Source: Draconibacterium orientale
GTDB taxonomy: Bacteria; Bacteroidota; Bacteroidia; Bacteroidales; Prolixibacteraceae
NCBI RefSeq assembly: GCF_000626635.1
Contig: NZ_CP007451.1
Coordinates: forward strand, 2,666,001-2,730,000
Direction of reading: 5' to 3'
Length of the DNA: 64,000 nucleotides
Below, piece after piece: positions 6,112-24,801 of the stretch. How positions within the stretch are numbered: position 1 is the first letter of the stretch; each line of letters begins with the position of its first letter. The position numbers and the translations under genes were made by a program. Below the pieces are notes generated by a model that made no database searches, was not told where the DNA came from, and saw only the letters and a program-made list of their open reading frames with translations.

Positions 6112-7725
6112 TTATTTTATCAGGCCTCTGTCTTTGTATTTTTGAATAAAAGCCTCATCAAGTTCCTCCGAGTCTTTGTATTGCACACGCAAATTCTGCA
6201 ATTGTTTGGTCAATGTAGTAACCACATCGGCATAAGCCGGGTCGTCGTACACATTATTCAGTTCCAACGGATCTTTTTTGCGGTCGTACAATTCCCACTC
6301 GTCAATATCGTAATAGAAATGTGCGAGTTTAAAATCGGTGGTTACAATTCCGTAGTGCCGTTTTACCATATGGAATCCCGGATATTCATAATAATGATAA
6401 TAAACAGCATCGCGTGTCCAGGCGGCCGTGTCGCCAACCAAAAGCGGCATCAAACTTTCGCCCTGCATATCCGATGGAGCATTAACACCCGCAGCCTCCA
6501 GAAAAGTTTGTGCAAAATCGAGGTTCTGCACCATTTCATCCGAAACCGATCCCGGAGCAATTTTTCCCGGCCACTTTACCAAAAGCGGTGTTTTAAACGA
6601 TTCGTTGTAAATAAAACGTTTATCGAACCAGCCGTGTTCGCCCAGATAAAATCCCTGATCAGAGGTATAAACGACGATGGTATTCTCATCCAATCCCTGT
6701 TTTTTCAAGTGATCGAGCAAACGGCCAACATTTTCATCAACCGATGCAATACAGCCCAGGTAATCCTGCATGTAACGCTGGTATTTCCAACGCATAAAAG
6801 CCGAGTCGTTCATTGTAGGGTACAGATTTGCAAACTCTTCGTTTATTGGGCCGTAAACCGCATCCCAACTGGCTTTTTGCTCATCGGTAAAACGGGCGTA
6901 TTTACTTTTAAAAACGTTAAATCCCCATTCCGACATTTCCTCAACGCCCAGCTCTTTGGCCAACTCGGGGTGAATTTTATTATCAGCCGAAACGGTCATG
7001 TGTTTTAACAGGTTCATTTCGGCCTCTTTCGCTGCTGTTCCCCGTCCTTTGTAATCGTCAAATAAAGTCTCTGGTTCGGGGAAAGTCTTTTGGGTAAACT
7101 CCTTATAATGGCGTTCAGCAGGGTACCACTCGCGATGAGGCGCTTTGTGCAGGTACATCATTAAAAAAGGTTTGTCTTCCTTTCTTCGGTTATCCATCCA
7201 GTCGATGGCAAGGTCGGTAATTACGTCGGTTACATAACCCTGAATGGTGGTGTCGCCGGTGTTGGTAATAAAATCGGGGTTGTAGTAATCGCCCTGTCCG
7301 GGAAGGATTTTAAACTCATCAAAACCTTTCGGATTGTTTCCGAAATGCAGCTTTCCAAACATAGCCGTTTGATAGCCGGAATTGTGCAGCAACTGCGGAA
7401 AAGTAACATTGGTTGTGTCGAAAGGAAAGTTATTGTCGATCTTTCCGTGAATGTGCGTGTGTTTTCCGGTTAGAATAGTTGCCCGCGACGGCGCACAAAT
7501 CGAGTTGGAAACACAGGCATTGGTAAACAACATCCCTTCGTCGGCAATCCGGTCGATATTTGGCGTCTGGATCAGTTTATCGTCGTAGGCGCTAATGGCC
7601 TGGTACGCATGATCGTCGCTCATAATAAAAATAATGTTTGGGCGTTGCAGATCACTTTCTTTTTGCGAACAAGCTTCCAAAAGCAGAACTGATGCAAAAA
7701 GTGTTAGTACTAATAAACTTCTCAT
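6112..7725 (-). CDS. S1-family sulfatase lipoprotein (N-acetylglucosamine-6-sulfatase-like)
   Basis: The 537-residue protein has a lipoprotein signal (LLLEAC, Cys19) and an alkaline-phosphatase-type sulfatase fold. RPNIIFIMSDDHA supplies the calcium-binding Asp37-Asp38. CAPSRATILTGK carries the C-x-P-S-R formylglycine site (Cys77 to Arg81). GKLHFG and TSDQGFYLGEHGWFDKRFIYNESF are further conserved active-site blocks. The DDHAYQAISAY pattern is what I associate with the S1_11 (GlcNAc-6-O-sulfatase) group, though the substrate is inferred. It is the last gene of the operon, 18 bp after GH3, and must be activated by a formylglycine-generating enzyme encoded elsewhere. Confidence 0.9.
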   Translation of the reverse strand: MRSLLVLTLFASVLLLEACSQKESDLQRPNIIFIMSDDHAYQAISAYDDKLIQTPNIDRIADEGMLFTNACVSNSICAPSRATILTGKHTHIHGKIDNNFPFDTTNVTFPQLLHNSGYQTAMFGKLHFGNNPKGFDEFKILPGQGDYYNPDFITNTGDTTIQGYVTDVITDLAIDWMDNRRKEDKPFLMMYLHKAPHREWYPAERHYKEFTQKTFPEPETLFDDYKGRGTAAKEAEMNLLKHMTVSADNKIHPELAKELGVEEMSEWGFNVFKSKYARFTDEQKASWDAVYGPINEEFANLYPTMNDSAFMRWKYQRYMQDYLGCIASVDENVGRLLDHLKKQGLDENTIVVYTSDQGFYLGEHGWFDKRFIYNESFKTPLLVKWPGKIAPGSVSDEMVQNLDFAQTFLEAAGVNAPSDMQGESLMPLLVGDTAAWTRDAVYYHYYEYPGFHMVKRHYGIVTTDFKLAHFYYDIDEWELYDRKKDPLELNNVYDDPAYADVVTTLTKQLQNLRVQYKDSEELDEAFIQKYKDRGLIK

Positions 7726-7743
7726 TTTAGTTGGTTTAGATTC

Positions 7744-10030
7744 TTATTCTAAAGTAAATTTTGTTGCCAGTGAGGCGTTCGAATCACCTCCCACATAAAT
7801 TTCAAATTCACCGGGTTCGGCATAAAACGACAAATCCGAATGATAAAATGCCAGATCGTCGTTGGTGATAGTGAATTCCACTGTTTTAGTTTCACCTTTT
7901 GGAACGAAAACTTTTTCGAATCCCTTGAGCAAACGCAACGGTGGCGTAATGCTGGCCACCATATCACGAATATACAACTGCACTACTTCTTCGCCATCAA
8001 AATCGCCGGTGTTGGTCACTTCAACAGACACTTTTACGTCTTCGTTATTGGCGATTGTGGCTTTGTCGATACTTAAGTTTTTAAACTCGAATGAAGTGTA
8101 GCTCAATCCATAACCAAAGGGGAAAAGCGGCGAGTTGGGCGCATCCAGGTAATTCGATTTGAATTTTTGAAAGGTATCGCCATCTTGCGGGCGACCGGTA
8201 TTTCGAACGCTGTAATAAATCGGCACTTGCCCAACATTTACAGGGAAAGTTGCTGTAAGTTTACCGGATGGATTGTAATCGCCAAACAAAACGTCGGGCA
8301 GCGCATTTCCACCTTCAACACCGGCATGCCACATTTGCACGAAAGCATCAGCCAGCTCTACTTCTTCGCTAATTTCCATTGGGCGACCACTCATATTTAC
8401 CACAACCAGTGGTTTTCCTGTTTTGGCCAGTTCCCGCAACAATTTCTTTTGACTCGGAGGCATGGTAATATCCGTGCGGCTTGATGATTCTCCCGTCATT
8501 TCAGTGGCCTCACCAACAACTGCAACAATCACATCTGCTTTTTCGCGACACAGATACAGCTTCGCGCAACATAGTTTCAGGCGAACGTTCGTCAATAAAA
8601 ATCTTCGGGCCAAATACATTTATTTTTTCTGCAAATGCAGGATCGTCGCTAATATTAGCACCTTTTGCATGAAGAATATTCACATCGTTGCCAACCACAT
8701 TCTGGAATCCTTCCAAAACGGTAACTGAAAGATTGAAGTCTCCTGTTGGTGCCCATGTTCCAAGCATGTTGCTACGACTGTCAACCAGCGGTCCGACCAA
8801 AGCCACTGTTCCTGTCTTTTTCAGCGGTAGCAACTGGTTTTCATTTTTCAATAGTACCATCGAACGGGCAGCTGCTTGTCGTGCCACCTGACGATGTTCA
8901 TCAGTTAGAATATCATTTTCGGGACGCGAGTTATCAAAATAAAGATATGGATCGTCAAAAAGTCCCAGTTTGTATTTTGCTTCCAGAATTCTACGGCACG
9001 CTTTATTAATATCTTCCTCGGTAACTTTGCCTTCTTCCAGCGATTTTTCCAGCGTGGTCAGAAATCCTTCTCCCACCATGTCCATATCCAAACCGGCTTT
9101 TAATGCCAGCGCCGAAACCTCTTGCAAATCGCCCAAACCGTGAGCGATCATTTCGTTTACCGAAGTGTAATCGGAAACCACAAATCCATCAAATCCCCAC
9201 ATATCGCGCAAAACGGTGGTAAGCAACCACTTGTTTCCACTGGCGGGCACGCCGTCAACATCGTTAAAAGACGACATTACGCAACCAACTCCGGCATCGA
9301 TTGCAGCCTTGTATGGCGGGAAATATTCGTTGAACATTCTCAGGTGACTCATATCAACCGAGTTGTAATCGCGGCCGGCTTCTGCAGCCCCATACAAGGC
9401 AAAATGTTTTACGGTTGCCATCATCGTTGTAGTTGAGGTCAGGTCGTTTTGTTGGTATCCGTTTACCATTGCCTTGGCAATTTCGGAACCCAGGTACGGA
9501 TCTTCACCGGCACCTTCAGAAATACGCCCCCAACGTGGATCGCGCGATACATCAACCATTGGCGAGAAGTTCCAGAAGATACCATCGGCGGTTGCTTCTT
9601 TCGCCGCAATCTGAGCAGTTTTTTCTATCAATTCCATATCCCAGGTGCTGGCTAGTCCAAGCGGTAGCGGGAAAGTGGTTTTGTATCCATGTATAACATC
9701 GGAACCAAAGATCATCGGAATTCCCAGGCGGCTTTCTTCAACAGCCAGTTGCTGTGCCTGGCGTGTTTTTTCCGGTCCGTAAACACCAAAAATACCGCCT
9801 ACTTTCCCGGTTTTTATTTTCTCCTCAACTCCGGTGCTTACAACCGATCCTGTTGGAATTCCACCTCCCGGCGTAATCAGGTTCAACTGACCAATTTTTT
9901 CCTGGACAGTCATTTGGGCCATCAGATCGGAAACAAAAACATCCATTTCGGAATCATCTGAGTTGCTCGTCGGTGTTCCACATCCGGCGAATAAAAATAG
10001 TACTGCAACAAATAGTAAAAAGCGTGACAT
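7744..10030 (-). pseudogene. bglX: GH3 beta-glucosidase (BglX-like lipoprotein), interrupted by a 1-base frameshift
   Basis: The gene would encode 761 residues, the normal BglX length. The N-terminal frame (10030 down to 8510) has a lipobox (FLFAGC, Cys17), KHFALYG (Lys208-His209) and GFVVSDYTS with nucleophile Asp287. The C-terminal frame (about 8550 down to 7744) has the alpha/beta sandwich (VIVAVVGEATEMTGE) and the FnIII-like domain (VEVTNTGDFDGEEVVQLY). The frames part at Lys497, where an A5 tract (T5 at 8539-8543 on the plus strand) has one base too many; with A4 the text reads SRK-ADVIVAVVGE, as expected. It may be a sequencing error or a real lesion. GH3 enzymes with GH144 partners cleave sophoro-oligosaccharides. 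Confidence 0.85.
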
Positions 10031-10051
10031 ATCTATAGTATTTAAAAGTTT

Positions 10052-11863
10052 CTAATTAATTCTAATGGGTTCCGTTTGTTCCGAAATTCCGTTTTCGTTA
10101 AATGCTTCAATCGAAAAATAGTAGGGCGTATTGCGGTCGAGGCAGCGCATAAAATGCTCAGTTGTATCGTATAGCTGCCACGACTGGTAGAGTTTGTCGG
10201 GTGCAATTCCCCAACGGATATTGTATCCCTGCGCACCTTTTACCGGTTTCCACGAGAAGGAAATATCCCGGCGGTCATCTTCACGATTTATCTGAAAATC
10301 TTTTACTTCGGCAGGTTTCTTCCCGAGTCCTAAACCAAATACCCGAATCTCGCTCATGGCAAAGTTTTTTCCCGGAACTTTGATGTTTTTATAGCGAACA
10401 AATTTTGCTTCCACCGGCTGATTCAGCACGATGTATGCATTCGGTGAATCTTTGTAACTGTTGCTACGGTCAACCGCCGTTTGCCAGTTTTTTCCGTCTG
10501 CTGAAACTTCGATTACAAAACGATGTCGTAAGCCTTCGGTGCGTGTATAAATACCCGTTTCATAATCGTGAAAATTCAGTTGAAAAGCATAAATATTTCC
10601 TGGATTTTGCATTTCAATAGTTATCCATTGTTTGTTGTCGTTGGCTTCGGCCACCCAAAATGTTTTCGGGTTTTCATCGGTCAGCACATTGGCGGTAATT
10701 TCACCTTTGTCATTCTTTTCAATCGGTAATTCGTGTACCTCCACCTCATCATTATTTGAGGTGAATTTCATGATCTGTTGTAACGACGATGAAACGGTAA
10801 CTTTTCCTTTGTACGACAACAACATCCAGCCGCAATGCTCGCCGGCTTTTGTGGGATGATCGGGGCCAAAACGCGGATAATCGCCATAAGCCGTATTCGA
10901 ATGCATCAAGCCTTCGTCATCGAAATAGGTGGGGAACATGCACAACCGACGTTCCCATTGAGCATTTGAAGCCAGTGCCATAGTAGCAAAATGCCAGTAT
11001 TGACCGTTGGTTTGTTTCACCGTAATTCCATGCCCTGCGCCGTTGGTAAAACCACCCGGTTTAAAGCTCATCGGGTTGTTTTTCATATAGGTGAACGGGC
11101 CCAGTGGCGATTCACCGATGTAAACGCCATCGGCATAAACATTAAATTGTGTTCCCGGTGCAGCGTACTGCAGGTAATATTTGCCGTTGTGTTTGGTCAT
11201 TGAGGCACCTTCCATGTAACCTTCTTTTAAAGTTGGATGAAAGTTATTCTCTCCAAAACGCTCCCAGCCGTGCTCTTCCTCCACCAGGTTTATCAGGTCT
11301 TTTTTCATTCCGGTTTCCAAAAAACGATCATCTTTGTTTAATTCTTTTACGCGAATCGGATACACATTCGATGATCCCCAATACAAATAGGTTTTGCCGT
11401 CATCATCAATAAAAAGCTCTGAATCCTGAATATTATTTGAAATAGATGGCGTTGGTGTCCATTTGCCGCTTTTGGGGTCGTCGGTGTAAAGAATACTCCC
11501 GTAACCCGCCGGATCGCCGGCAAAATACACCAACGAATCTTTGTAATTAAAAGCTGTTGGTGCGTTACAACCTTCGAAAAACCATTGCTGAGGTTTAATA
11601 AAATTCCAATGCACCAAATCGGTTGAGTGCCAGTAGCCAAACGAGCGGGTAACAAACATGTAGTATTCGCCGCGAAACTCGATAACTGCCGGATCGGCAC
11701 CCGATCGATAAGAAATATTCCGGGCCGAATTGTAAACCATGTAGGTGTAATCTATATCCAGCGGATTACAATAGGTTTTTGGAATGATAATTTGGGCCTG
11801 GCCGCTGCTAATGATTGACAGGGCTATTAAGAAAGTTCCAACAAGTTTTTTTAAGGTTTGCAT
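10052..11863 (-). CDS. GH43-type glycosidase with discoidin (F5/8 type C) and fibronectin III domains
   Basis: The 603-residue secreted protein begins with a signal peptide (about 1-23). A five-bladed beta-propeller follows with the GH43 acidic triad plausibly at Asp57 (RSGADPAVIEF), Asp147 (IQDSELFIDDDG) and Glu219 (GYMEGASM). Residues about 365-510 form an F5/8C carbohydrate-binding module (ENPKTFWVAEANDNKQWITIEM... through VRYKNIKVPG). The last about 90 residues are a fibronectin III domain. Such enzymes usually remove alpha-L-arabinofuranosyl or beta-xylosyl groups; the specificity here is not readable. The gene lies 18 bp from the GH144 gene before it and 21 bp from GH3 after it. Confidence 0.88.
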   Translation of the reverse strand: MQTLKKLVGTFLIALSIISSGQAQIIIPKTYCNPLDIDYTYMVYNSARNISYRSGADPAVIEFRGEYYMFVTRSFGYWHSTDLVHWNFIKPQQWFFEGCNAPTAFNYKDSLVYFAGDPAGYGSILYTDDPKSGKWTPTPSISNNIQDSELFIDDDGKTYLYWGSSNVYPIRVKELNKDDRFLETGMKKDLINLVEEEHGWERFGENNFHPTLKEGYMEGASMTKHNGKYYLQYAAPGTQFNVYADGVYIGESPLGPFTYMKNNPMSFKPGGFTNGAGHGITVKQTNGQYWHFATMALASNAQWERRLCMFPTYFDDEGLMHSNTAYGDYPRFGPDHPTKAGEHCGWMLLSYKGKVTVSSSLQQIMKFTSNNDEVEVHELPIEKNDKGEITANVLTDENPKTFWVAEANDNKQWITIEMQNPGNIYAFQLNFHDYETGIYTRTEGLRHRFVIEVSADGKNWQTAVDRSNSYKDSPNAYIVLNQPVEAKFVRYKNIKVPGKNFAMSEIRVFGLGLGKKPAEVKDFQINREDDRRDISFSWKPVKGAQGYNIRWGIAPDKLYQSWQLYDTTEHFMRCLDRNTPYYFSIEAFNENGISEQTEPIRIN

Positions 11864-11881
11864 TGCTTCTTAGTATATCAG

Positions 11882-13240
11882 TTACGGTGTTTCAAATCCC
11901 AATTTTGCCAATCCTTTCTTCACATCCTCGTTTTTCATGAATAGGTTCCACAAAAGTCCGCTGCGGTAATTTTCAATCATCACCGGAATTGGTCCCTGAT
12001 CGATGGCCAGGTAACGTGGCAAATACCAGTTTTCTGTTTGGCTGTATGCATCATACGGACCGTATTCTCCCACGAGTGAATCGGCTTCCAGGTATAAGTA
12101 TTTCAAAACGTTCATCGATTCTTTTGGCGTATAAGGAAACGATGAAAGTGCAGCGGTAGGAGAAATCACTCCAAGATCCGATTCCCCCGGATGATGCCCG
12201 GCATAACCGTTCATGGAATAACTTGACGTAAATCCCCACTGATTCTCGCCATATCCTTTATGATTTTTAGGATTATCAAGCGCGTAACGATAGTGAATCG
12301 TAGCATGATTTACATTTAGTTTCCAGTAGTCGGCATACTTGTCTTTTAACCCTTTCGGATTCAGACCAAGGTACGAATAATGTGCCCAAAAAAGTGGCCC
12401 GATCGGATCGTCGTTGTGTTCGTAAAAGTTAAGAACGGTACTCAGGCCGTAATAAATGGTGTCTTTTGCAATGTCTCCGTTAAGCGCCCAGCCTTTATCG
12501 TAAATGGCCGGAGAGATTGGATGCGTTGGCGATGAAGCTGCCAGAACGTACATGATCAGACATTCGTTGTAACCACCAACCGGGAAATTCATCTCCCAGC
12601 CGTAATTGGGCGACCAGTGCCAGTACAAAACATCTTTTCCTTGGGTGTACCAGTCCCATTCAACGGTTTCCCACAATTGCTGAATATCGGCAACCAGCTG
12701 CTGCTCCGCTTCATTTCCGTCTTTGTAGTATTCGGCAACCGCCAGTAATCCCTGGATCATAAAAGCAGTTTCCACCAAATCGCCGCCATCATCTTTTTTA
12801 CTGAATGGTTTTACTTTCCCAGTTGGCCCGTCAAGCCAGTGTGGCCACGCACCATGGAAACGATCGGCTTTTCCGAGATAATCTACGATTTTTTGAAAAC
12901 GTTCCAGCGCCTGCTCACGCGTAATAAATCCGCGTTCGATACCAACGAGAATGGCCATTACGCCAAATCCCGAGCCGCCAAGTGTAACCACATTCTGATC
13001 GTTTTGCGGATACACATTGTCCATATGAATGCGCTCGCGTGCCATTCCTGAAACCGGTTCTGCACCATCCCAGAAATACTGAAAGGTTTGGTATTGCACC
13101 AGATTCAGCAAAGAATCTTCAAGTGAAATTTCTGCTTTCTGCACCGTTTCAACCGGTTTTTTGTTTTTGGAATTGCATCCCGAAAAACCCATGCTGCTGA
13201 TCAGTGCGATTAATACTATTGGAAATATAATCTTCTTCAT
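11882..13240 (-). CDS. GH144-type (Glycoamylase fold) endo-beta-1,2-glucanase-like lipoprotein
   Basis: The 452-residue lipoprotein (MGFSGC, Cys22) is almost entirely the PF10091-type (alpha/alpha)6 barrel that defines GH144. Landmarks are QYQTFQYFWDGAEPVSGMARER, GGSGFGVMAILVGIERGFI, DDGGDLVETAFMIQGL (Asp150, Asp154, Glu157), WETVEWDWYTQG and DYWKLNVNHATIHYRYALDNP. From memory, an acidic cluster with this spacing lines the active site of the Chitinophaga enzyme that founded GH144. The family hydrolyses internal beta-1,2-glucosidic bonds. It is followed, 18 bp on, by GH43, and a longer paralogue lies 3 bp upstream. The two paralogues probably arose by tandem duplication. Confidence 0.85.
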   Translation of the reverse strand: MKKIIFPIVLIALISSMGFSGCNSKNKKPVETVQKAEISLEDSLLNLVQYQTFQYFWDGAEPVSGMARERIHMDNVYPQNDQNVVTLGGSGFGVMAILVGIERGFITREQALERFQKIVDYLGKADRFHGAWPHWLDGPTGKVKPFSKKDDGGDLVETAFMIQGLLAVAEYYKDGNEAEQQLVADIQQLWETVEWDWYTQGKDVLYWHWSPNYGWEMNFPVGGYNECLIMYVLAASSPTHPISPAIYDKGWALNGDIAKDTIYYGLSTVLNFYEHNDDPIGPLFWAHYSYLGLNPKGLKDKYADYWKLNVNHATIHYRYALDNPKNHKGYGENQWGFTSSYSMNGYAGHHPGESDLGVISPTAALSSFPYTPKESMNVLKYLYLEADSLVGEYGPYDAYSQTENWYLPRYLAIDQGPIPVMIENYRSGLLWNLFMKNEDVKKGLAKLGFETP

Positions 13241-13243
13241 CTG

Positions 13244-15229
13244 TTAATACGTAAAATCAAGTTTTGTTAATCCGGCTTGTACTTCAGGGCACGACATAAA
13301 CAGATCCCAAAGCAGGTTGGTCCGGTAATTTTCAATCATCACTACAATCGGCCCCTGATCGATGGCAAGGTAGGAGTCGGCCACCCAGCCGTTGGTAAAA
13401 TCAAAAGCGTCGTAAAATCCATATTCTCCCCACAATTTATCTCCAAGTGTGTAGTAGAAATAGCGTAAAGCTTCCATCGATTCCTCAGGCGTGTAAGGCA
13501 TCGACGACAGCGCCGCAGTAGGAGTAAGAACGCCCCGGTCGTTGTTTGGCGAGTGTGCCGAATAACCGGAATAGCCATCGCTGGCCGTAAGTCCCCAGCA
13601 CTCATCAGAATATGCCACATAGTTTTGCGGATTATCGGCACAGTAGGCCTGATTTATTTTTGAGTGCGTTACATTTTGCTCCCAGTAATTGGCATACTGA
13701 TCAGAAAGGTTTCGTGGATCGAGTCCCAAAAACGAATAGTGCGAAAAGAACAAGGGGCCGCCCATGTCGCTGCGCAATGGCAGGGTGTAGCCGTAATACG
13801 AATTATTATCTGTGTTAATCATGTCGCCATCACGCGCCCAGCCTTTGGTGTATACATCTCTGTCGATGGTGTGCGTTGGCGACGAAGCAGCGAGAATATA
13901 AACAATAAGAGCCTCATTCCAGCCCCTTATTTTCATGTTCATTGCCCAGTCGTTATTTTCCGACCAGTGCCAGTACAATACGTCTTGTCCGCCTTGTGTG
14001 TACCAGTCCCATTCAATGGTTTCCCAAAGTGTGTTGATTTTATCCTTTAAGGAAGATTCCTGTGAATTGCCGGAATTCAGGTACTGTCTCACAGTTAGTA
14101 ATCCCTGCATCATGAATGCGGTTTCAACCAGGTCGCCACCATCGTCGTTTGAGCTAAACGGAATGGTCTGTCCGGTTTCGCCGTTTAACCAGTGTGGCCA
14201 TACGCCATAAAAACGGTCGGCATCAGTTAAAAAATCGACAATGGTTTCCAGTCTGTCAACTCCTTGCTTACGCGTAATAAATCCGCGTTCGATTCCTACC
14301 AATATCGCCATTATACCAAAACCGGAACCACCTGTGGTAACCGTATTTCCTGATGTATTTCTTTCGCGTGCCAATCCTGAAACCGGATGTGCAAAATCCC
14401 AGAAATACTTGAAAGTTTGCCGTTGAACCAGCGTTAATAATTCTTCGTCTGAAATTTGCGGGAATTTAGGAGTGGTGTCGGCTTGCGTATAAAAGTTCAG
14501 TTCCAGCCCGTCGAAAGGCTTGCCAATCCGATTTTCAATGTCTGATGAAATGGAAAAAACGGTTTTACTAAAACCTTCCAGTTCCTGCGAAATTTCAACA
14601 GAAATTGTTTGTTCGTTTACCTGGTTAACAGTTGAAGCTACTGATGCTCCATTGCTTGAATACGACGAATAAAGGGAAATGTCGTCTTTTGACACGGCTG
14701 AATTAAATTGTAGCTGGATCACCGGTTTTCGGTTAATATCCAGAATTCGCGACAGCGGATTGTAGGTTACTTCATCTATTTGCACACTTTCTAAAACCAG
14801 TGGTGTTGTGAGTGTAGAGAAGGTATACGATTGCCCATTAAAAGGCTCCTCGTTTGCTCCTTTCAAGCCGGATGAAATCGTCAATGTATAAGTTGCATTT
14901 TCATCCAGATCCTGATGATCGATTTTTACCAATTGATTGGAGTTGAAATAGGAAAATGTTAATGCCAGAGGATTATTATCTGCGTCGAATAAATTAATAT
15001 TTGCCTCGGCAGAAACTGTATTTATCGCAGTATTAAAACGGATTTCAATCGTTTCGTCGATGGCAACATTTGAATTGGCGCCACTTGCAGAAAGTGCTGT
15101 TTCGCCAATATAAGCGTACGTGATTGCCAGGTTTTCCGTCGGTTGTTCTTCCGCCGGATCATCCTTACTGCAGGAAACAATCATTCCTGTTACAAAAAAA
15201 AGCAATAGTAATTTATGGAATATGCGCAT
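13244..15229 (-). CDS. GH144-type enzyme with two N-terminal Ig-like (Big_5/SbsA) domains, surface lipoprotein
   Basis: The 661-residue protein starts at ATG 15229, where a lipoprotein signal begins (VTGMIVSC followed by SKDDPAEEQ). An upstream in-frame ATG at 15304 would bury that signal. The acidic tail after Cys resembles surface-export signals of Bacteroidota lipoproteins. Residues about 35-250 form two Big_5-like domains (IDETIEIRFNTAIN, KPVIQLQFNSAVS). Residues about 265-660 form the GH144 barrel (FKYFWDFAHPVSGLARER, GGSGFGIMAILVGIERGFI, DDGGDLVETAFMMQGL, EWDWYTQGGQDVLYWHWS). It is probably the surface endo-acting member of the pair. It lies 3 bp before the shorter paralogue. Confidence 0.85.
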   Translation of the reverse strand: MRIFHKLLLLFFVTGMIVSCSKDDPAEEQPTENLAITYAYIGETALSASGANSNVAIDETIEIRFNTAINTVSAEANINLFDADNNPLALTFSYFNSNQLVKIDHQDLDENATYTLTISSGLKGANEEPFNGQSYTFSTLTTPLVLESVQIDEVTYNPLSRILDINRKPVIQLQFNSAVSKDDISLYSSYSSNGASVASTVNQVNEQTISVEISQELEGFSKTVFSISSDIENRIGKPFDGLELNFYTQADTTPKFPQISDEELLTLVQRQTFKYFWDFAHPVSGLARERNTSGNTVTTGGSGFGIMAILVGIERGFITRKQGVDRLETIVDFLTDADRFYGVWPHWLNGETGQTIPFSSNDDGGDLVETAFMMQGLLTVRQYLNSGNSQESSLKDKINTLWETIEWDWYTQGGQDVLYWHWSENNDWAMNMKIRGWNEALIVYILAASSPTHTIDRDVYTKGWARDGDMINTDNNSYYGYTLPLRSDMGGPLFFSHYSFLGLDPRNLSDQYANYWEQNVTHSKINQAYCADNPQNYVAYSDECWGLTASDGYSGYSAHSPNNDRGVLTPTAALSSMPYTPEESMEALRYFYYTLGDKLWGEYGFYDAFDFTNGWVADSYLAIDQGPIVVMIENYRTNLLWDLFMSCPEVQAGLTKLDFTY

Positions 15230-15328
15230 CAGAATCAGCAATAAGAGTTTTTGAAAATTAAAGAAAAAGTTTGAATTGACCCACCGCAGATTACGGTGGG
15301 CCAATTCTTAAAACTACCTTATAGTGCT

Positions 15329-17071
15329 CTATAAACCGTCTTGCATCATTAAAGCAACTTCGTCAGCCGAAAGTGCTTTTTTGAACAAGTATAATTCGTC
15401 CATCAGACTTTCGTCCGAGTTGTGGTTCCAGCCATTAAAACGTGGAGCGCCTGACATAATTGAAAGCAGGTCGCAGCCGGTCCAGTCGATTCCAGAAAAA
15501 TCACCTTGTTTAACCTCAACTCCATCTATATAAACGCGCGCCTCGGTACCCGAAATGGCAAATGCCATGTGCACCCAGTTGCCAGTTGTTGGGTCAACAT
15601 CGGCGGCAGTACCACCATCAAACCACGAGTCTGCAGTTCCGTTACCGGCATTAAGTTTAAAGCGTTGCATTCCACCTGCATTTTCGCGGAAGAAACGGAA
15701 ACCACTTGTTCTGTCGTTTTGCGCGTCAGGATTGGCAGTGTCTTCTGGTCCCATAACCAAAATACCAGCTCTGTCTGGTGTTGCATTAACATTCAACCAG
15801 AAACTTGCACTGAATTCTTCTCCCTGAACATCAACATCAGCAGTTGAGAAAGTGAGGTACGAATCAGCCGCTCCCTGGTAGGCATCGCCTTCAACACCGG
15901 CGCCATAATCAATTGATGGATTGCCAACAACTGTAGCATCTGCGGTACTGATGGCTTCTTTAAAATCGCCGTTAAAATCCATGTAGAAAGAAGCTTGTTC
16001 TTTCAGCATAATGGTGTGAATTTCTTCCTGTGTAAGCGCAGTATTGAAAATACGTAACTCATCCATTAAACTACCGTCAGAAAGGTGGCTCCAGCCGGTC
16101 CAGTTCGGAGCACCCGACATAATTGAAATCACATCACAATCGGTCCAGTCGATTCCTGAGAAATCACCGTCACTAACCAATTCTCCGTTAATGTAAACAG
16201 CGGCGCTGGTTTCTGAAATACTAAATGCAAAGTGTGTCCACTCACCTGTATTTGGTTCAACATCGGCAGCAGCTCCACCATCAAACCACGAGTCTGATTC
16301 TCCATTACCAACATTCAATTTAAAACGCTGCATACCGCTTGCATTTTCGCGGAAGAAACGGAAACCTTTTGTACGGTCGTTATCGTTGTCAGCCGGAGGT
16401 GATACCACTAAAATTCCCGCTCTGTCCATGCTGGCATCAACTTTCAGCCAGAAACTTGCACTAACTTCGGTTGCTCCCTGCAGAATTGTAGCTGGGAATG
16501 TTAGGTACGAATCAGCAGCTCCGCTGTATGCAGTACCTCCCTGGATACCATCGGTAAAACCAGGACTTCCTACTGCAGTTGCCAGGTTAAGGCTGTTCAT
16601 TTCGCGGAACTCGTTATTAAACGGCATGTAGAAAATTTCGCCTTCGTATTGCGGTACGTATGGCGGCGATTTGGCAAAGTTTACGGTTGCTGTTGTTGTT
16701 TTGCCATCAAGATCGGTGGCAGTAACACTTAACACATGCGAACCAGTTGTTACATTGTCGTAAGTGTAGGTTCTCATTGCCACGCGGTAGTCCATAAAGT
16801 CAGAGTAGCTCACAATTTCGGTGCCGTCGATATTCACCGAAATGGACCCGATTTCAATATCGTCACGCACTTCAAAGTCGATATTTACCGAAGCAACAGC
16901 ATCGTTTGTTTGAATTTCATAACCTTCGGGTGGAAAGTTAATCGTAACCTGTGGAGCTGTTTCATCCGCTCCCGGGGCTACAGCCGATATTCCATCGATG
17001 TAGTTCTGATCGCATGCATTGAAAGCAAACAGTATCAATGCAAGTATAAATAATTTATTATAAGTCTTCAT
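15329..17071 (-). CDS. Surface glycan-binding lipoprotein candidate: Ig-like domain plus two LamG (ConA-like) domains
   Basis: The 580-residue lipoprotein (FAFNAC, Cys20) occupies the SusE/F position right after susD. Residues about 40-135 are an Ig-like domain (VTINFPPEGYEI, FEVRDDIEIGSISVNIDG). Two LamG_3-type jelly rolls follow (about 145-360 and 365-580). Their cores are nearly identical: GFRFFRENA[SG]GMQRFKLN, DSWFDGG[AT]AADV, GDFSGIDWT-CD and SIMSGAP. That suggests a recent domain duplication. There are no catalytic residues I can point to, so binding of the operon's glycan is the likely role. Spacing to susD is 11 bp. Confidence 0.8.
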   Translation of the reverse strand: MKTYNKLFILALILFAFNACDQNYIDGISAVAPGADETAPQVTINFPPEGYEIQTNDAVASVNIDFEVRDDIEIGSISVNIDGTEIVSYSDFMDYRVAMRTYTYDNVTTGSHVLSVTATDLDGKTTTATVNFAKSPPYVPQYEGEIFYMPFNNEFREMNSLNLATAVGSPGFTDGIQGGTAYSGAADSYLTFPATILQGATEVSASFWLKVDASMDRAGILVVSPPADNDNDRTKGFRFFRENASGMQRFKLNVGNGESDSWFDGGAAADVEPNTGEWTHFAFSISETSAAVYINGELVSDGDFSGIDWTDCDVISIMSGAPNWTGWSHLSDGSLMDELRIFNTALTQEEIHTIMLKEQASFYMDFNGDFKEAISTADATVVGNPSIDYGAGVEGDAYQGAADSYLTFSTADVDVQGEEFSASFWLNVNATPDRAGILVMGPEDTANPDAQNDRTSGFRFFRENAGGMQRFKLNAGNGTADSWFDGGTAADVDPTTGNWVHMAFAISGTEARVYIDGVEVKQGDFSGIDWTGCDLLSIMSGAPRFNGWNHNSDESLMDELYLFKKALSADEVALMMQDGL

Positions 17072-17082
17072 GTTTTATCGTT

Positions 17083-18615
17083 TTAGTCAATTCCTTCTTC
17101 CAAATGTGGTAATTCAGCAACCTGATCGGCCGGAAATGGCAAATAGGCTTTGTCCATTGTAAATGTTCGGCCTCCATACGAAAGGGCGCTTGTGTTTTCG
17201 GTACGTACCATGTCGTAAAAACGTGTTCCCCATTCCATCGCCAGTTCGGCAAATTTCTCGTCCAGTACATCTTGGGTTGTAACCCCCGATAAGTTGGTTA
17301 ATCCGGCACGGGCACGAACCATGTTCACGGCATCGTCGGCACTCATTGAAATATTACTTGATGCTCCACGTGTAAGCGCTTCTGCATAGGTAAGGAGCAT
17401 TTCGGAGTAACGGATAACAATAAAGTTCTTGTTACTTCCGTATGATGTTCTCCCGGGAATCAACTCAGTAGAAGGTTGACTGTGTTTGCCACTCACAAAA
17501 TTCAAACGTGCGTTATTGTTAAAAATGTCGCCTTCGCGGTTGGTGTTATCAATCCACTCGGGTAGTTCACCGTAATCGTTTTGCAACTCGGTAATTCCAT
17601 CGGGAGTGAAAATAACACTGGTTTCCAGTCGTTCCACTTCGCCTCTGTCGAGCATAAATTCAATGTATTTCAATGTAGGCTCATAGAATCCCCAACCGGC
17701 ACCGGCGCCTGTTACAACGGGTGTCCATCCGCCAATTCCAAATGGTGCCCACAAGAAATTGGAATTATCGCCTTCTCCCTGGTAAAAATCAGAATATTGG
17801 AATTCCATAATGTTTTCATCATTCAGTTTACCTGCCTTTTTAAACAGGTGGTAAAAGTCGTCGGATAATCTAAACTCTCCCGAATTAATAATTTGCGAAG
17901 TTGCATTTACCACTCCCTGGTAATCTTCCATTTCCTGGTAAGCCAATGCCTGAATTGCGTAAGCTGTGTAAGTAGTCATTCCTCCAGGAATATCAGAACG
18001 TTTGTTTGGATGCATATCAGGAAGGTTTGGAATTGCATCGGTCATTTCGTCAACAATATATTGCATTACCTGAGCTTTATTGCTCACTGGTGTATTCTGA
18101 ATATTGTCAAGTTCGTCGATAACAATACAACCACCAAAAGTACGGGCAATGTTCAGGTAAAGGTAACCACGCATAACACGGCATTCGGCAATGTACTGAT
18201 CGGCCATTGCATCGTTACCTGATGCTTCGCGGTACTTATTAATTTCTTCGATAGCCGTAAAAACATTCACGATATCGTTGTAGTGCAGCTGCCATACTGA
18301 GTTTGGATTCCAGTGGCTGGCCTGGTACATATAATTATCCTGTTCCTGCATAGGAACCTGGTCGCCTGCAGCATTTACATCATCGCCACGAATTCCCAGC
18401 GTTAACGGCTCTTCCCACGAGCGTGTGTATAATCCCTGATAGGCTCCCATTAACGGTAATACCATATTTTCGCTAATGGTATAATCCACGTCGCTGGTAA
18501 ACGATTCGTTCTCAAAAGGTTGGTCGAGTTTGTCGGTACATCCGATTACTGACACCAATAGCAGCCCGACTAACATTACGGGTGCAAAATATTTTATTAA
18601 AAGTTTCTTCTTCAT
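17083..18615 (-). CDS. SusD/RagB-family nutrient-binding outer-membrane lipoprotein
   Basis: The 510-residue lipoprotein (LLVSVIGC, Cys26) forms the lid of the SusC channel. SusD landmarks include the N-terminal TPR region (VFTAIEEINKYREASG, AECRVMRGYLYLNIARTFGGCIVID), NTPVSNKAQVMQYIVDEMTDAIPNLP and the C-terminal FIVIRYSEMLLTYAEAL..VNMVRARAGL..VLDEKFAELAMEWGTRFYDMVRT..FPADQV. The start is the ATG at 18615, 12 bp after the susC stop, which indicates translation from the same operon mRNA. Confidence 0.95.
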   Translation of the reverse strand: MKKKLLIKYFAPVMLVGLLLVSVIGCTDKLDQPFENESFTSDVDYTISENMVLPLMGAYQGLYTRSWEEPLTLGIRGDDVNAAGDQVPMQEQDNYMYQASHWNPNSVWQLHYNDIVNVFTAIEEINKYREASGNDAMADQYIAECRVMRGYLYLNIARTFGGCIVIDELDNIQNTPVSNKAQVMQYIVDEMTDAIPNLPDMHPNKRSDIPGGMTTYTAYAIQALAYQEMEDYQGVVNATSQIINSGEFRLSDDFYHLFKKAGKLNDENIMEFQYSDFYQGEGDNSNFLWAPFGIGGWTPVVTGAGAGWGFYEPTLKYIEFMLDRGEVERLETSVIFTPDGITELQNDYGELPEWIDNTNREGDIFNNNARLNFVSGKHSQPSTELIPGRTSYGSNKNFIVIRYSEMLLTYAEALTRGASSNISMSADDAVNMVRARAGLTNLSGVTTQDVLDEKFAELAMEWGTRFYDMVRTENTSALSYGGRTFTMDKAYLPFPADQVAELPHLEEGID

Positions 18616-18627
18616 GTTTTAAAGTGT

Positions 18628-21600
18628 TTAGAATTTTAGATTTACCCCAATTGTGTAAACGGCCGGTACCGGATAAAACTGTCGGTCGATACCGTTGTTA
18701 ACTTCCGGATTAAATCCGTTGTACTTAAATACTGTAAGCGGCTTTTCTGCAGTTACAAATACTCTGGCATCGGGCATTCCCGCGCCAAACAGCTTTTCGC
18801 CATCAATGTTGTAGGCCAGCTGAATGTTCTGGATGCGGAAGAAGTTTCCGTCTTCAACCAGGTAATCGCTAAAGTTCTGGTTCCATCCGCGGCGAAGTGC
18901 CGAAGCCGATGGATATTTATTTGAGGTGCCTTCGCCGGTCCATAATCCCTTGGCCAAATCGGCGTCGATGTTGGTATCGTTTGTCCAGATGATCTCACCA
19001 CGTTTGCGGTTAAGGATTTTATTACCTGTTTGGCCCATAATGTTCATCGAGAATTCGAAGTCTTTATAGTTCAGACCGATAAACCCACCGTATGTAAATG
19101 TTGGAATGTATGAACCCAGGAATACTTTGTCGTCGTCGTTGATCACATCGTCGTTGTTCTGATCCACATATCTGAAATCGCCCGGAACCAAAGAATTGTC
19201 AACGGCTACCGGATCAGCGCTGATTTCAGCTTCGTTTTGGTAAATGCCTGCCACTTCGTAACCATAAAACGAAAGCAGTGGTTCACCAATCTGTGAACGT
19301 TGTCTGAACTCGGCCGAACCGCCGTTAATGTAGGTTTGTCCGTAAAGGTCGCGCACTTCGTTTTTAAGTGTTGAAATGTTCACGCCAAGGTTGTAGCTAA
19401 AATCTCTGTTAATTTCGTTTCGCCAGCCTACTGCAAGTTCCAATCCCGAGTTACGGATAGTACCAACGTTACGCAAAACACTTCCCGATTGCAATTTCAA
19501 ACTTACCGGGATAGCCGCATCTTCCGTGTCGCGGATAAAGTAGTCGGCATCAATGGTTAAACGATTACCAAGCAATTCGGCGTTCAAACAACATTGGTCC
19601 CGGTTACGGTTTCCCAACCCAAATAACCAAATGTGCTTGTTGTGGTTGTTCCGTCAACCTGCATATCGTCGATAGCCAAATAAACCGGATTGGTAGTATT
19701 TGCTCCATCCTGGCGGGCAATTTTATCGTTACCCAGTTTTCCCCAGCCACCTCTCAGTTTCAGGTAGCCGAGAAAACCAACATTTTCCATAAAGCTCTCT
19801 TCGGTAACTACCCATCCTAAACCAAAGGCAGGGAAAGTACCCCATTTCTCCTGGTACTTCTGTGTTCCTTCCTGGCGAATGGTGAAATAAGCAATGTATT
19901 TATTATTGTAGTTGTACGATACTCGTCCGAAATAAGAGATGCCGTATAAACGCTCGCCATCGTCATAAACTTGTTTTGACGACTCGGACTGCGACTGGTC
20001 AATGTACCATCCATTTTCATTCAATGGAATATCTTCAGCATTTCCACGCAGGTAATCATACCATTCGTCCCGGTATGACATACCGGCCATTGCGGTGATG
20101 TTATGGTCGCCAAAACTGTCGGTGTATGTTAATGTGTTATCAAAGAAATGGTTTACATCAGTTGTCCTAATTGATTCAATTGAGGACAAGGTACGTTTTG
20201 TTGAATTGGTAATGTAATACGGTATTCCAACACTACGCTCTTTCAAAAACATCATTGAAGAATTGTAGGTACTCTTAAACTTTAGCAGGTTTGGAAGTAA
20301 GTCAGCCTCGGCATAAACGCCGGCCAGTACTTTCCGAATATTTTGTCGTTTTTCATTGTAAGCGAGACTTAAAAACGGGTTTTGCGAACCGCGGTAATCT
20401 AATAATTGTGCACTCGAATAATTACTTGGGTAATCAATTCCTTGTGCTACCAAATCGTCGTAATTTTGTTGGTCGAAAACCGGAAGGATTGGAACAGCAT
20501 GATAAGCACTAAACCAGGCTGCATCGTCAGCAATATCGCGGGTGCCGTTACTTACATTAAAGTTTACCCCGGTTTTTAACCAGCTGTTTGCCTGGTGATC
20601 GATTGATGCCCGAATATTCATTCTTTTGTATCGATCGTCAGCTTCCAGTAAACCTTCCTGGTCGTAGTAACTCACTCCCATCGAGTATGAAGTTTTATCG
20701 TTACCACCCAAAACCGAAACCGAGTGGTTTTGCTGGCGGGCATGCGATTTCATAATCTCGGCATACCAGTCGGTATTAACGTTGGGTACGTTCGGGTTTA
20801 CGCGGCTGCGGCCGTAGCGCTGCATGGCATTTTCTACAAAGCTAATGTCGGCTGCCGATCCGGTTTGGTAAACGTAATCAACGAATTGTTCGGCGTTGGC
20901 CATTTGCATCACGTTCTGCGGAACCTGGATACCATAGTATCCTTCGTAGGTAATACTGGTTTGTGTGTTTAACGAACCTTTTTTTGTGGTAATAAGTACC
21001 ACGCCGTTTGCTGCCCTAACACCGTAAATCGCCGATGCCGATGCATCTTTCAAAACCGATAAGGTTTCGATATCCGATGGGTTAAGGAAATCGATGTCGT
21101 TGAAATACATTCCGTCAACAACATACAAAGGTGATGAATCACTGCTTCCCGGAAACGATCCGATACCACGAATACGAACTGTTGGTGAACTACCCGGCGA
21201 CCCGGAATTTACAATTTGTACACCGGCAACTTTTCCCTGTAACGACTGCATTGCCTGTCCGGCAGGTGTTTTTACCAGTTCGTCTGCTTTAACTGTGGAA
21301 ATTGAAGAGGTAAGATCGGCCTTTTTCATCGATCCGTAACCAACTACAACCACTTCCTCAAGGCCAACTACATCTTCCTGTAACTGAATGTTGATTGTGC
21401 CTGATTGTTGTGGATTTATTTCCTGAGATAAAAAACCAATGTAACTAAAAACTACAGTGGCTCCCTGTTTTACCGACAATGTATAATTGCCGTCAATGTC
21501 TGTAACAACTCCGTTAGTTGTTCCTTTTTCCAAAACGGATACTCCCGGCAGAGTTATTCCGTCTGCATCAACCACCGAGCCGGAGATAGAAATTCTATCC

Positions 21601-21659
21601 TGCGCAAACAGGGTTGAAATCGAAAAAAGGAGAAATACAATAAAGAATGTTTTTCGCAT
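18628..21659 (-). pseudogene. SusC/RagA-family TonB-dependent receptor, interrupted by a 1-base frameshift
   Basis: Restored, this would be 1010 residues, the normal SusC length. It has a signal peptide (MRKTFFIVFLLFSISTLFAQ), a carboxypeptidase-regulatory-like domain (GSVVDADGITLPGVSVLEKGTTNGVVTDIDGNY in pieces), the EEVVVVGYG TonB-box region and the plug (PLYVVDGMYFNDIDFLNP..LKDASASAIYG). The long barrel ends ..YTIGVNLKF. The first frame stops near 19584 after WETVTGTNVV; the remainder continues from CLNAELLGNRLTIDADYF. Adding one G (GTTGGTTTG instead of GTTGTTTG) gives TNVGLNAELL, the usual SusC text. Uptake by this operon depends on whether the lesion is real. Confidence 0.88.
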
Positions 21660-21687
21660 AACTTCAAAATTTGAATTAGTTTGAGTT

Positions 21688-21719
21688 CAAAGTTACGGCG
21701 ACAGCATGGCGCAAAGCAA
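21688..21719 (-). promoter_or_regulatory. Promoter of the susCD operon
   Basis: On the minus strand TAACTTTG (21695-21688) matches the Bacteroidota -7 consensus TAnnTTTG. A TTG lies 21 bases upstream (21719-21717), with a second TTTG 16 bases upstream. The start codon of susC follows 28 bases later, at 21659. The 300-bp divergent gap is the obvious target for the neighbouring regulator, but I saw no clear palindrome in it. Confidence 0.65.
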
Positions 21720-21966
21720 TCAAATAAATACACTATTGATACTTTGGGGCAAAGTGAATCGCTTTAACAACCTCATTATTACCTCATCCTGTATAATAAA
21801 CAATAATCATAAGTAGTTGTAAAACAGAGTTTAAAATGGTGTTCGGTATATAAAAACTTTTTATTTTTTTATACATTTAATTTTATTTATTTCGCAAAAA
21901 ATGGGGTTTGGAGTAGAAAATGCAGGAACTCGATCCTTTTATTAGCTGTTAAATCAAAAACATTTG

Positions 21967-24801
21967 ATGTTTAGAACCGGAACAAAATCGATGATTGTAA
22001 CCATCTTTTTGGTGGTTTGGGCGATCACTTCTATGGCTTTGGAAGAGGAAACGGGAGTGGTGAAATTTGACCAGACAATCTATAAAGGAGCCCGGCAAAA
22101 CTGGGGCGTTGGTATTGCCGGCGATGGTATGGTTTATTTTGCCAATCACTCGGGGCTTCTTTCGTTCGACGGAACTAACTGGATGATGAACCGGCTGCCC
22201 AACAATACCATTGTGCGCTCGGTAAAAGCTGTTGCCGACTCGGTTGTTTATACCGGTGGTTATATGGAGCTGGGTTTTTGGAAAACGAATCCAACCGGAG
22301 AACTGGTTTACACTTCGCTCAACCCAAAAGCGGAAGAGTTTTTTGAAGAAAATCCCAATCTGGAGTTTTGGAACATTGCTGTTAAAAACGATTATGTCTA
22401 TTTTCAATCGTTTGGCAATATACTCACCTATCATAGCGACAGTATATATTCCTTGCTTCTTGGTGGTGGCATTTCGGTCATGAACCAGGTAAACGATCGG
22501 GTATTGGTGGCGATCAGAGACAATGGAATATGGGAAATTGAAAACGATGAGGTAATTCGAATTATTTTCGACGATGCCCTGATAGGTACAACCGTTAAAT
22601 TTATTATACCCGGAGCTAATGAGACCCTGCTGATTGGTACCGCCGACAGAGGAATTTTTCTTTGGGATGGAATAAAACTAAAGCAATGGAATGATGAATG
22701 GACATCATATTTTATTGAGAACGAATTAAACCGGGCTTGTCGTAACAAAAGCGGACAATATATTATTGGTTCGCTGGTTGACGGAATTGTTGTTTTTGAT
22801 CGGTTTGGGAAACTGATAACAAAAGTAAATTCGAGAAATGGTTTGCCTAACAATACGGTATTGGGCATTGCTACCGATGAACGCGGGAATACCTGGCTGG
22901 CACTTGATATTGGAATTGGTTTTGTAGCCGACAACCCCAACAAAAGTTTTGTGGTTAAAAACTTACCGGGTGCGGGTGCGATTTACTCAACAGCCATTTT
23001 CGAGGATAAACTATACCTCGGTACCAACCAGGGTTTGTTTGAAGCATCGCTTGATTTGGATAACGATGAAATTCAACTTGTTCAGGGCACGCAAGACCAG
23101 ATATGGGATTTGAAAGTAATTGACAATGAACTATTAATTGGTCACAACCAGGGAAGTTTCGCTTTAAAAAAAGGGAAGAAAAGAGTAATCTCGAACGAAG
23201 GCGGAGCTTTCAATTTTGTACAGGATCCGCTTCATCCCGAATTGCTTTTGCAGTCAACTTACAACCGAATTATTGTTTACAATAAAACCAATGAGGGTAT
23301 AGAGTTCCGAAATTATATCGAAGATTTTACGAACCTTATTCGATATATTGAATTTGATCATTTAGGAAATATATGGGCCAGCCACATGCACCGCGGAATT
23401 TTTAAAATTCAGGTGGATGAAGAACGCACAAAAGCGGTGGGAGCACCCGAATATTTTGGAGAAGAGACTTTCGGGAAAGACCACTCCATACATGTATTTA
23501 AAATTGAAAAGCGCATTGTATTTACTACCGGCGAAAAGTTATATACCTTCGACGATCTTACCAATTCCATTCTTCCGTACGATACATTAAACGCCAGTTT
23601 GGGAAAGTATGCAGCCGCCAGCCGAATAATAAAAGCGCCCAATAATTATTATTGGTTTATCGAGCCGACATCAATTGGTCTGTTCTCCATTGTACAAACC
23701 GATGTTAAACTGGTTAAAGAGTTTCCAACAACGTTGTTTAACGATCCGTTGTTGGTTGAAGGTTTCGAAAATTTACTTCCGGTAAATCAATACACCAGTA
23801 TTTTGTGCCTGCAAAATGGTTTAGCTTTTCTTGATGCTTCGGTAAGCGACTCTGCCACAAGTACGGTTGGACGGTATGCGCCAGAGGTAAGAAGTATTGA
23901 GCTGCAAAGCAATGGTGGGAGATCGGTATTTTTACCTCTTAACACCAATGACCCCGAAATTAAAAACACGCTGAACAACGTGAAATTCCGCTTTTCTTTT
24001 CCTATGCTCAACGAATTTCCGGTATCATACAAGTATTTTTTGCAGGGCTTACATCAGGACTGGTCGGACAGTGTGACCGAGCCTGAATTTCAGTTTGAAC
24101 GATTGCCACGCGGTGAGTACCAGCTACAGGTAAAAGCAGTTGACATCTGGGGTAACGAAAGCCAGATTTATACTTTCGATTTTAAAATATTGCCACCGCT
24201 GTTGGCTACCAAACTGGCCATATTTCTGTATATGTTTATTTTAATCGGAGCGCTTTTGCTGTTCCGGCGGTGGGGGGTAAAACAAACCCAAAAGAAAGAA
24301 CAACTGCAACACGAAAAACGTGAACAGGAACTTATTCGCCTGCGAAACGATAAACTACGAAGCGAAGTGCGATTTAAAAGTAAAGAACTGGCAAACTCTA
24401 CCATGGCCATTATTCGTAAAAACGAGTTTCTGATCGACCTGAAAAATATTGTACGGAAACAAAAAGAAGAGCTGGGATCGCGTTACCCCGACAAATATTT
24501 TAATTACCTGAACAACAAAATTGATGAGAATATATCGAGCCGCGACGACCGCCAGATTTTTGAAAACAATTTCGAGCGCGCACACGAACAGTTTTTCCAA
24601 AAGATGAAAAACAAATATCCCGACCTTACCTCTAGCGACCTGCAATTGTGTGCGTACCTGCGAATGAATTTATCGTCGAAAGAAATTGCTCCGTTATTGG
24701 GAATCTCCATCCGTGGCGTTGAAAACCACCGTTACAAATTAAGGAAAAAGCTGAACCTCCAGCCCGAGGATTCGCTTACTGATGTTATGCTTTCGGTGTA
24801 A
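21967..24801 (+). CDS. SusR-like membrane-spanning transcriptional regulator (beta-propeller, Y_Y_Y, LuxR-type HTH)
   Basis: The 944-residue protein has a signal anchor and two runs of Reg_prop-type beta-propeller blades (for example GVGIAGDGMVYFANHSGLLSFDG and TVLGIATDERGNTWLAL). A Y_Y_Y domain follows at about 650-740 (YKYFLQGLHQDWSD, LPRGEYQLQVKAVDIWGN) and one transmembrane helix at about 746-766. A cytoplasmic coiled coil leads to an HTH at about 885-930 (LTSSDLQLCAYLRMNLSSKEIAPLLGIS..VENHRYKLRKKL). There is no histidine kinase or receiver, so it is SusR-like rather than a hybrid two-component sensor. It is divergent from the operon and probably activates it on sensing a glycan fragment. 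ATG 21967 is used; ATG 21991 is an alternative. Confidence 0.88.
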   Translation: MFRTGTKSMIVTIFLVVWAITSMALEEETGVVKFDQTIYKGARQNWGVGIAGDGMVYFANHSGLLSFDGTNWMMNRLPNNTIVRSVKAVADSVVYTGGYMELGFWKTNPTGELVYTSLNPKAEEFFEENPNLEFWNIAVKNDYVYFQSFGNILTYHSDSIYSLLLGGGISVMNQVNDRVLVAIRDNGIWEIENDEVIRIIFDDALIGTTVKFIIPGANETLLIGTADRGIFLWDGIKLKQWNDEWTSYFIENELNRACRNKSGQYIIGSLVDGIVVFDRFGKLITKVNSRNGLPNNTVLGIATDERGNTWLALDIGIGFVADNPNKSFVVKNLPGAGAIYSTAIFEDKLYLGTNQGLFEASLDLDNDEIQLVQGTQDQIWDLKVIDNELLIGHNQGSFALKKGKKRVISNEGGAFNFVQDPLHPELLLQSTYNRIIVYNKTNEGIEFRNYIEDFTNLIRYIEFDHLGNIWASHMHRGIFKIQVDEERTKAVGAPEYFGEETFGKDHSIHVFKIEKRIVFTTGEKLYTFDDLTNSILPYDTLNASLGKYAAASRIIKAPNNYYWFIEPTSIGLFSIVQTDVKLVKEFPTTLFNDPLLVEGFENLLPVNQYTSILCLQNGLAFLDASVSDSATSTVGRYAPEVRSIELQSNGGRSVFLPLNTNDPEIKNTLNNVKFRFSFPMLNEFPVSYKYFLQGLHQDWSDSVTEPEFQFERLPRGEYQLQVKAVDIWGNESQIYTFDFKILPPLLATKLAIFLYMFILIGALLLFRRWGVKQTQKKEQLQHEKREQELIRLRNDKLRSEVRFKSKELANSTMAIIRKNEFLIDLKNIVRKQKEELGSRYPDKYFNYLNNKIDENISSRDDRQIFENNFERAHEQFFQKMKNKYPDLTSSDLQLCAYLRMNLSSKEIAPLLGISIRGVENHRYKLRKKLNLQPEDSLTDVMLSV

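Follow-up and report, generated by a model that had tools for sequence, protein, structure and literature searches.

Draconibacterium orientale belongs to a marine-type group of the Bacteroidota. Its genome contains a polysaccharide operon in which two GH144 enzymes and a GH3 stand together with a sulfatase and a GH43, and the question is which glycan such an enzyme set would serve. The operon lies in a stretch of 64,000 nucleotides (contig NZ_CP007451.1, positions 2,666,001 to 2,730,000), hereafter the window. The original prediction proposed a sulfated, pentose-decorated glucan or, alternatively, a GH144 branch with new specificity, and regarded both the sulfatase and the GH43 as foreign to known beta-1,2-glucan systems.

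For the sulfatase this view does not hold in the light of the published record. Marine GH144 loci with susCD were reported to add a sulfatase, from which an unknown sulfated marine polysaccharide, otherwise terrestrial-like, was inferred (Lapebie et al. 2019, PMC6499787); the passages describing these loci name neither a GH43 nor a sulfatase subfamily. Furthermore, Maribacter dokdonensis 62-1 possesses a cluster of one GH3, two GH144, susCD and sulfatase genes, with no GH43 named in the description of the cluster, and two GH144 were present in all Maribacter and Zobellia examined in the same work (PMC8072126). It should be added that GH144 was found enriched in deep water (PMC10405439). Because such loci are described in these two reports, at least in the parts that concern them, the central idea of the original prediction was already known. 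No report on the isolation of the underlying glycan was found in the sections of the open-licence literature covered. The remaining interest lies in the identity of the marine glycan inferred in 2019 and in a dedicated GH43 lineage; what is added here is the linkage of this GH43 to GH144, its tracking of the sulfatase and an occasional GH172-type neighbour, and we do not claim the linkage to be unpublished.

Samples of loci and phylogenetic tree

Three sets of loci were compared with the operon: 20 loci from the family, 80 named loci of GH43 orthologues (L163-L242; stretches of up to about 10 kb on each side, some of them short) and 80 GH144 loci from the phylum. For the latter, PF10091 was detected in 98 of 296 genomes, 65 of them with at least two copies (hand count), and 80 of the 98 each contributed a single stretch, 20 kb long at most; the D. 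orientale genome itself and 17 others were left out, the latter being mainly further members of one over-represented genus, short contigs and sites outside the list of matches. The GH144 tree was calculated with FastTree from 213 rows, which remained of 278 (274 rows drawn from 156 loci, both operon proteins and two fragments of PDB chains) after removal of near-copies above 85% identity.

Organisation of the operon

The operon occupies positions 6112-21659 of the window on the minus strand. Gene order (susC-susD-LamG-GH144-GH144-GH43-GH3-sulfatase), strand and domains agree with the original prediction, as the list of open reading frames and the domain search confirmed:

21964..24801, plus strand: SusR-like regulator; Y_Y_Y domain, membrane helix by eye, LuxR-type HTH below cut-off, no kinase domain matched
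18628..21659, minus strand: susC (TonB receptor), split into frames 19584-21659 and 18628-19617
17083..18615, minus strand: susD lipoprotein, from the domain search
15329..17071, minus strand: Laminin_G_3 lipoprotein (LamG; domain in two stretches), a probable surface glycan-binding protein
13244..15304, minus strand: GH144 long form (GH144L); Big_5 domain and GH144 domain (PF10091)
11882..13240, minus strand: GH144 short form (GH144S), CpSGL-like; PF10091
10052..11863, minus strand: GH43 with F5/8C and fn3, the fn3 just below cut-off
7744..10030, minus strand: GH3, split into frames 8510-10030 and 7744-8619
6112..7725, minus strand: S1 sulfatase, S1_11-like; CAPSR motif

The gaps between the operon genes measure 12, 11, 24, 3, 18, 21 and 18 bp, in agreement with the 3-25 bp stated originally; the longer gap of about 100 bp announced before GH144L is recovered as 99 bp if the first ATG (15229, 25 codons inside a listed frame that opens with TTG) is the start. 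Inspection of signal peptides and lipoboxes by eye gave GH144L (lipobox IVSC), SusD and the sulfatase the look of lipoproteins, to which GH3, GH144S and the LamG protein probably belong as well, while GH43 looks like a plain secreted protein. The divergent SusR-like regulator is present, with a Y_Y_Y match of 35.6 bits (cut-off 26.6) and, where expected, a GerE (LuxR-type HTH) match of 22.4 bits, just below the cut-off of 23.5. Its homologue occupies the equivalent place in most of the 20 family loci. Since 16 of these loci carry the functions of all eight operon genes, the gene set is not a product of chance, and it contains the susCD, GH144 and sulfatase genes that characterise the marine GH144-plus-sulfatase loci. 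Elsewhere in the window, a transposase (DUF4372 and DDE_Tnp_1) was located at 35777-37036 and an AcrB-type RND pump gene at 58118-61270.

GH144 enzymes

Both enzymes fall firmly within GH144 by PF10091 (263.8 and 260.6 bits), by their matches to the endo-beta-1,2-glucanase CpSGL and by the tree. GH144S scored 619 bits against CpSGL (5gzk), and GH144L 595 bits against 4gl3 and 537 bits against CpSGL (5gzh/5gzk). All seven CpSGL residues considered, D135, D139, E142, E211, F268, Y330 and D400, are retained in both proteins, among them D139, the general acid E211 and the candidate base E142; D400 is reported to tolerate mutation (PMC12102758, in the part dealing with these residues).

In the tree, GH144S was placed with CpSGL and 4qt9 in a clade of 58 of the 213 tips (support 89), and therein in a marine subclade of 26 rows (support 97), 22 of which come from loci with a GH43 of more than 50% identity to that of the operon. 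GH144L belongs to a clade of 39 rows (support 98), of which 13 come from loci with such a GH43, 19 from loci without GH43 or S1_11-like sulfatase and six from loci with a distant GH43. Sulfatase-bearing loci do not group apart: their rows intermix with those of the other loci, the sulfatase label requiring 27 changes on the tree. Eight substitutions separate the marine subclade from the 10-row group of CpSGL, only one of which, Asn to His, introduces a new basic residue. Despite this subclade, neither tree nor residues lend support to a GH144 branch with new specificity, and this alternative was set aside.

Sulfatase and GH3

The sulfatase (PF00884, 189.8 bits) bears the formylglycine motif C-x-P-S-R as CAPSR. 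Its nearest solved relatives are 5g2v (534 bits), 9s03, 7p24, 7ebp and 9s8y, followed by the exo-L-galactose-6-sulfatase 7lha, by virtue of which it looks like a member of subfamily S1_11, the exo-6-O-sulfatases. The GlcNAc-6-sulfatase 5g2v, which we take to be BT4656, is alike over residues 21-527 and in the Cys-type motif, but aligns poorly in a part of the middle (about 245-285); no N-acetyl site was recognisable. The D-K-R stretch of 5g2v (D361/R363) and two nearby His are retained and presumably form the triad recognising O3 and O4.

Enzymes of S1_11 cleave 6-O-sulfate from non-reducing ends of D-GlcNAc; aquatic members often are without the N-acetyl region, and the same triad is used for L-Gal (PMC10154612, as far as its account of this subfamily goes). 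A 6-O-sulfated glucose would fit a D-gluco triad of this sort. Across the D. orientale genome SGSH_C gave 14 match rows, some being two rows of one gene, and one of them (G000:C1:1094005-1094466) is as strong as that of the operon sulfatase. As to maturation, seven rows matched FGE-type proteins, and the best match to a radical-SAM sulfatase maturase, 30.6 bits, was below cut-off.

The GH3 lies near 3u48, 5tf0, 9urf and 5xxl, the last of which is, we assume, a sophorose-preferring enzyme.

GH43 lineage and its linkage to GH144

The GH43 (PF04616, 94.5 bits) has D57, D147 and E218 invariant in 35 sequences, and these residues, placed by GH43 motifs, we take to be the D, D, E catalytic triad. 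Its best profile match to known relatives reached 70 bits, and in the comparison of models many specificities appeared at similar Z, with identities of 18-24% to 4qqs, beta-xylosidases, alpha-L-arabinofuranosidases and BT_3662 in those rows. The model built from 35 sequences (pLDDT 81.6) yielded only the generic GH43 fold; a poor one from nine sequences (pLDDT 55.3) was discarded.

The gene neighbourhood is more telling. A GH144 gene was situated within 15 kb of the GH43 in 23 of 25 close family orthologues vs none of 20 distant GH43 matches, and the linkage drops with GH43 identity (23/25, 6/8, 13/17, 13/50 and 0/20). One of the two close orthologues without a nearby GH144 belongs to a genome where no GH144 was found. 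Among the 80 GH43-orthologue stretches, some of which are short, 61 contain a GH144, 73 a GH3 and 50 an S1_11-like sulfatase, with GH144 absent in 19 and this sulfatase in 30. One of these loci, L164 from the cultured relative Draconibacterium sediminis, contains the genes from susC through to the sulfatase within a single stretch. Other neighbours in these loci were an alpha/beta hydrolase (42/80), a BD-FAE-type esterase (37/80), GH2 (32/80), an endonuclease/exonuclease/phosphatase-family gene (28/80) and a sugar MFS transporter (23/80).

The 80 phylum stretches, sampled by GH144, contain at least two GH144 genes in 57 cases, a GH3 in 46, any GH43 homologue in 18 and an S1_11-like sulfatase in four (matches in nine at a looser cut-off of 70 bits). 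Fifteen of the 18 GH43 homologues are 36-40% identical to that of the operon, 14 of them nearly full length, and none of these 15 loci has the S1_11-like sulfatase. All three loci with a GH43 above 50% identity have it, vs one of the other 77 (Fisher 4.9e-5, uncorrected for kinship). The lineage to which the GH43 belongs thus shows a tight linkage to GH144, and in the phylum sample its form of more than 50% identity tracks the sulfatase; far from being foreign to such systems, GH43 recurs as a partner of GH144.

GH172-type neighbours

A clue to the side chain comes from DUF2961 (GH172-type) genes. One is inserted between GH144S and GH43 in two of the 20 family loci, L038 (6880-9763) and L040 (12726-13961). 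Such genes are rare, as they were met in three of the 80 GH43-orthologue loci (L165, from the same genome as L038; L174, 3667-5724; L197, near 8718-9902) and in none of the 80 phylum loci; the gene adjoins GH43 in L197 and is 4.3 kb away in L174. The nearest solved relatives of one DUF2961 protein include an exo-alpha-D-arabinofuranosidase (8ic8) and alphaFFase1 (7v1v), for which reason furanose side groups are favoured, rare as these genes are. Both enzymes are members of GH172 (PMC10509167).

Predicted substrate and proposed working of the locus

With family membership, residues, gene set and linkage as observed above, the locus is best read as one more of the marine GH144-plus-sulfatase loci already known for polysaccharide utilisation, the substrate of which, as predicted from the enzyme families, would be a sulfated beta-1,2-linked glucan with a side sugar; we give this reading a probability of roughly 0.6. 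The likeliest candidate, in which sulfate position and side sugar are both predicted, would be a 6-O-sulfated beta-1,2-glucan with furanose-type side groups. The sulfated, pentose-decorated glucan proposed originally thus persists as the best reading, although the sulfate component had been published before (PMC6499787 and PMC8072126, in the passages on these loci).

To judge from enzyme families, which suggest both cell locations and order of steps, the LamG lipoprotein and SusD would retain the beta-1,2-linked glucan at the surface of the cell, where the lipoprotein GH144L would cut it, and SusC would import the oligosaccharides. In the periplasm GH144S would cut further, GH43 would remove the side sugar (most likely a pentofuranose or xylose), the S1_11-like sulfatase would take 6-O-sulfate off the non-reducing end and GH3 would release glucose. 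The SusR-like protein may sense a product and turn the operon on.

Alternatively, the target could be a common beta-1,2-glucan of bacteria, either linear or of the cyclic periplasmic type, with substituents varying by producer and with sulfatase, GH43 and esterases as optional tools. The 76 of 80 phylum GH144 loci without S1_11-like sulfatase would agree with this, as would the frequency of esterase-like genes in both sets (26/80 phylum and 59/80 GH43-orthologue loci). The sulfatase, however, is present in 50 of 80 GH43-orthologue loci and travels with one form of GH43, and no report of sulfate on periplasmic glucans of marine bacteria was found in the open-licence literature; we consider such a target unlikely. 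A heteropolymer, in which GH144 would cut short beta-1,2-glucosyl or related stretches, appears quite improbable. The gene beside a GH144 in Bacteroides xylanisolvens encodes a beta-1,2-galactosidase inactive on beta-1,2-glucooligosaccharides (PMC11739564, in its part on this enzyme), so a GH144 locus need not target pure glucan, and the GH2, BD-FAE-type esterase and endonuclease/exonuclease/phosphatase-family genes near GH43 orthologues point in the same direction. Against this, both GH144 enzymes keep the seven CpSGL residues, and GH144S shares a clade with CpSGL.

Within the preferred reading of a sulfated beta-1,2-linked glucan with a side sugar, a bolder and rather unlikely possibility is that the GH43 lineage may be dedicated to GH144 loci as a hydrolase of side chains, and that its marine form might mark an undescribed, widespread 6-O-sulfated beta-1,2-glucan with furanosyl groups, D-arabino- or fructofuranose-like if the GH172-type partners are a guide. 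The gene set (CpSGL-like GH144, dedicated GH43, S1_11-like sulfatase and occasional GH172-type) points to linkages to be sought and to intact orthologues to be assayed.

Frame breaks in susC and GH3

The original prediction described the genes correctly for the most part; this gene set is of a published kind and is here a copy with two broken genes, both breaks having been missed. In the D. orientale assembly susC and GH3 each consist of two overlapping frames, for which reason this copy of the operon may not work. In alignments with six relatives, taken one by one, either break shows up as a length change of a single base, and one falls in a short run of A. When stop-to-stop frames of the 20 family loci were screened by motif, this recovered susC-like frames of 1008-1060 aa in 18 (including a 41% homologue in L049), the exceptions being L034, cut by the end of the stretch, and L047, with only 560 aa; GH3 frames of 763-779 aa were recovered in 16, the other four being undetected by the motif.

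Breaks of this sort are rare among the SusC-like and GH3 genes of the genome: a hand count gave 14 further GH3 genes and 39 further SusC-like genes, the latter with frames no shorter than 900 aa, all of them unbroken, besides five weak TonB-type matches with shorter frames, one with a TAG. The pair can be explained by recent decay or by a local error. That the locus is decaying, with susC and GH3 as real pseudogenes and the glycan no longer used, comes near to an even chance without reaching it, and is separate from the question of substrate. Two breaks in a single operon, next to the unbroken SusC-like and GH3 genes counted elsewhere in the genome, speak for decay; the other seven genes are intact, however, the pieces of the broken proteins are still 94-97% identical to those of the relative L033, so that any loss would be very recent, and a short A run is a usual site of sequencing error, which favours a fault of the assembly. 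An attempt to estimate the rate of frame breaks from the flanks of the relative G069 (L272, L033, L273 and L274) was unusable, as only nine of its 48 frames, two being the broken genes, matched the 400 kb of D. orientale compared; only operon genes matched, and the operon seems to lie elsewhere on the G069 chromosome. The 560-aa frame of L047, near 13048-16062, is possibly another broken susC.
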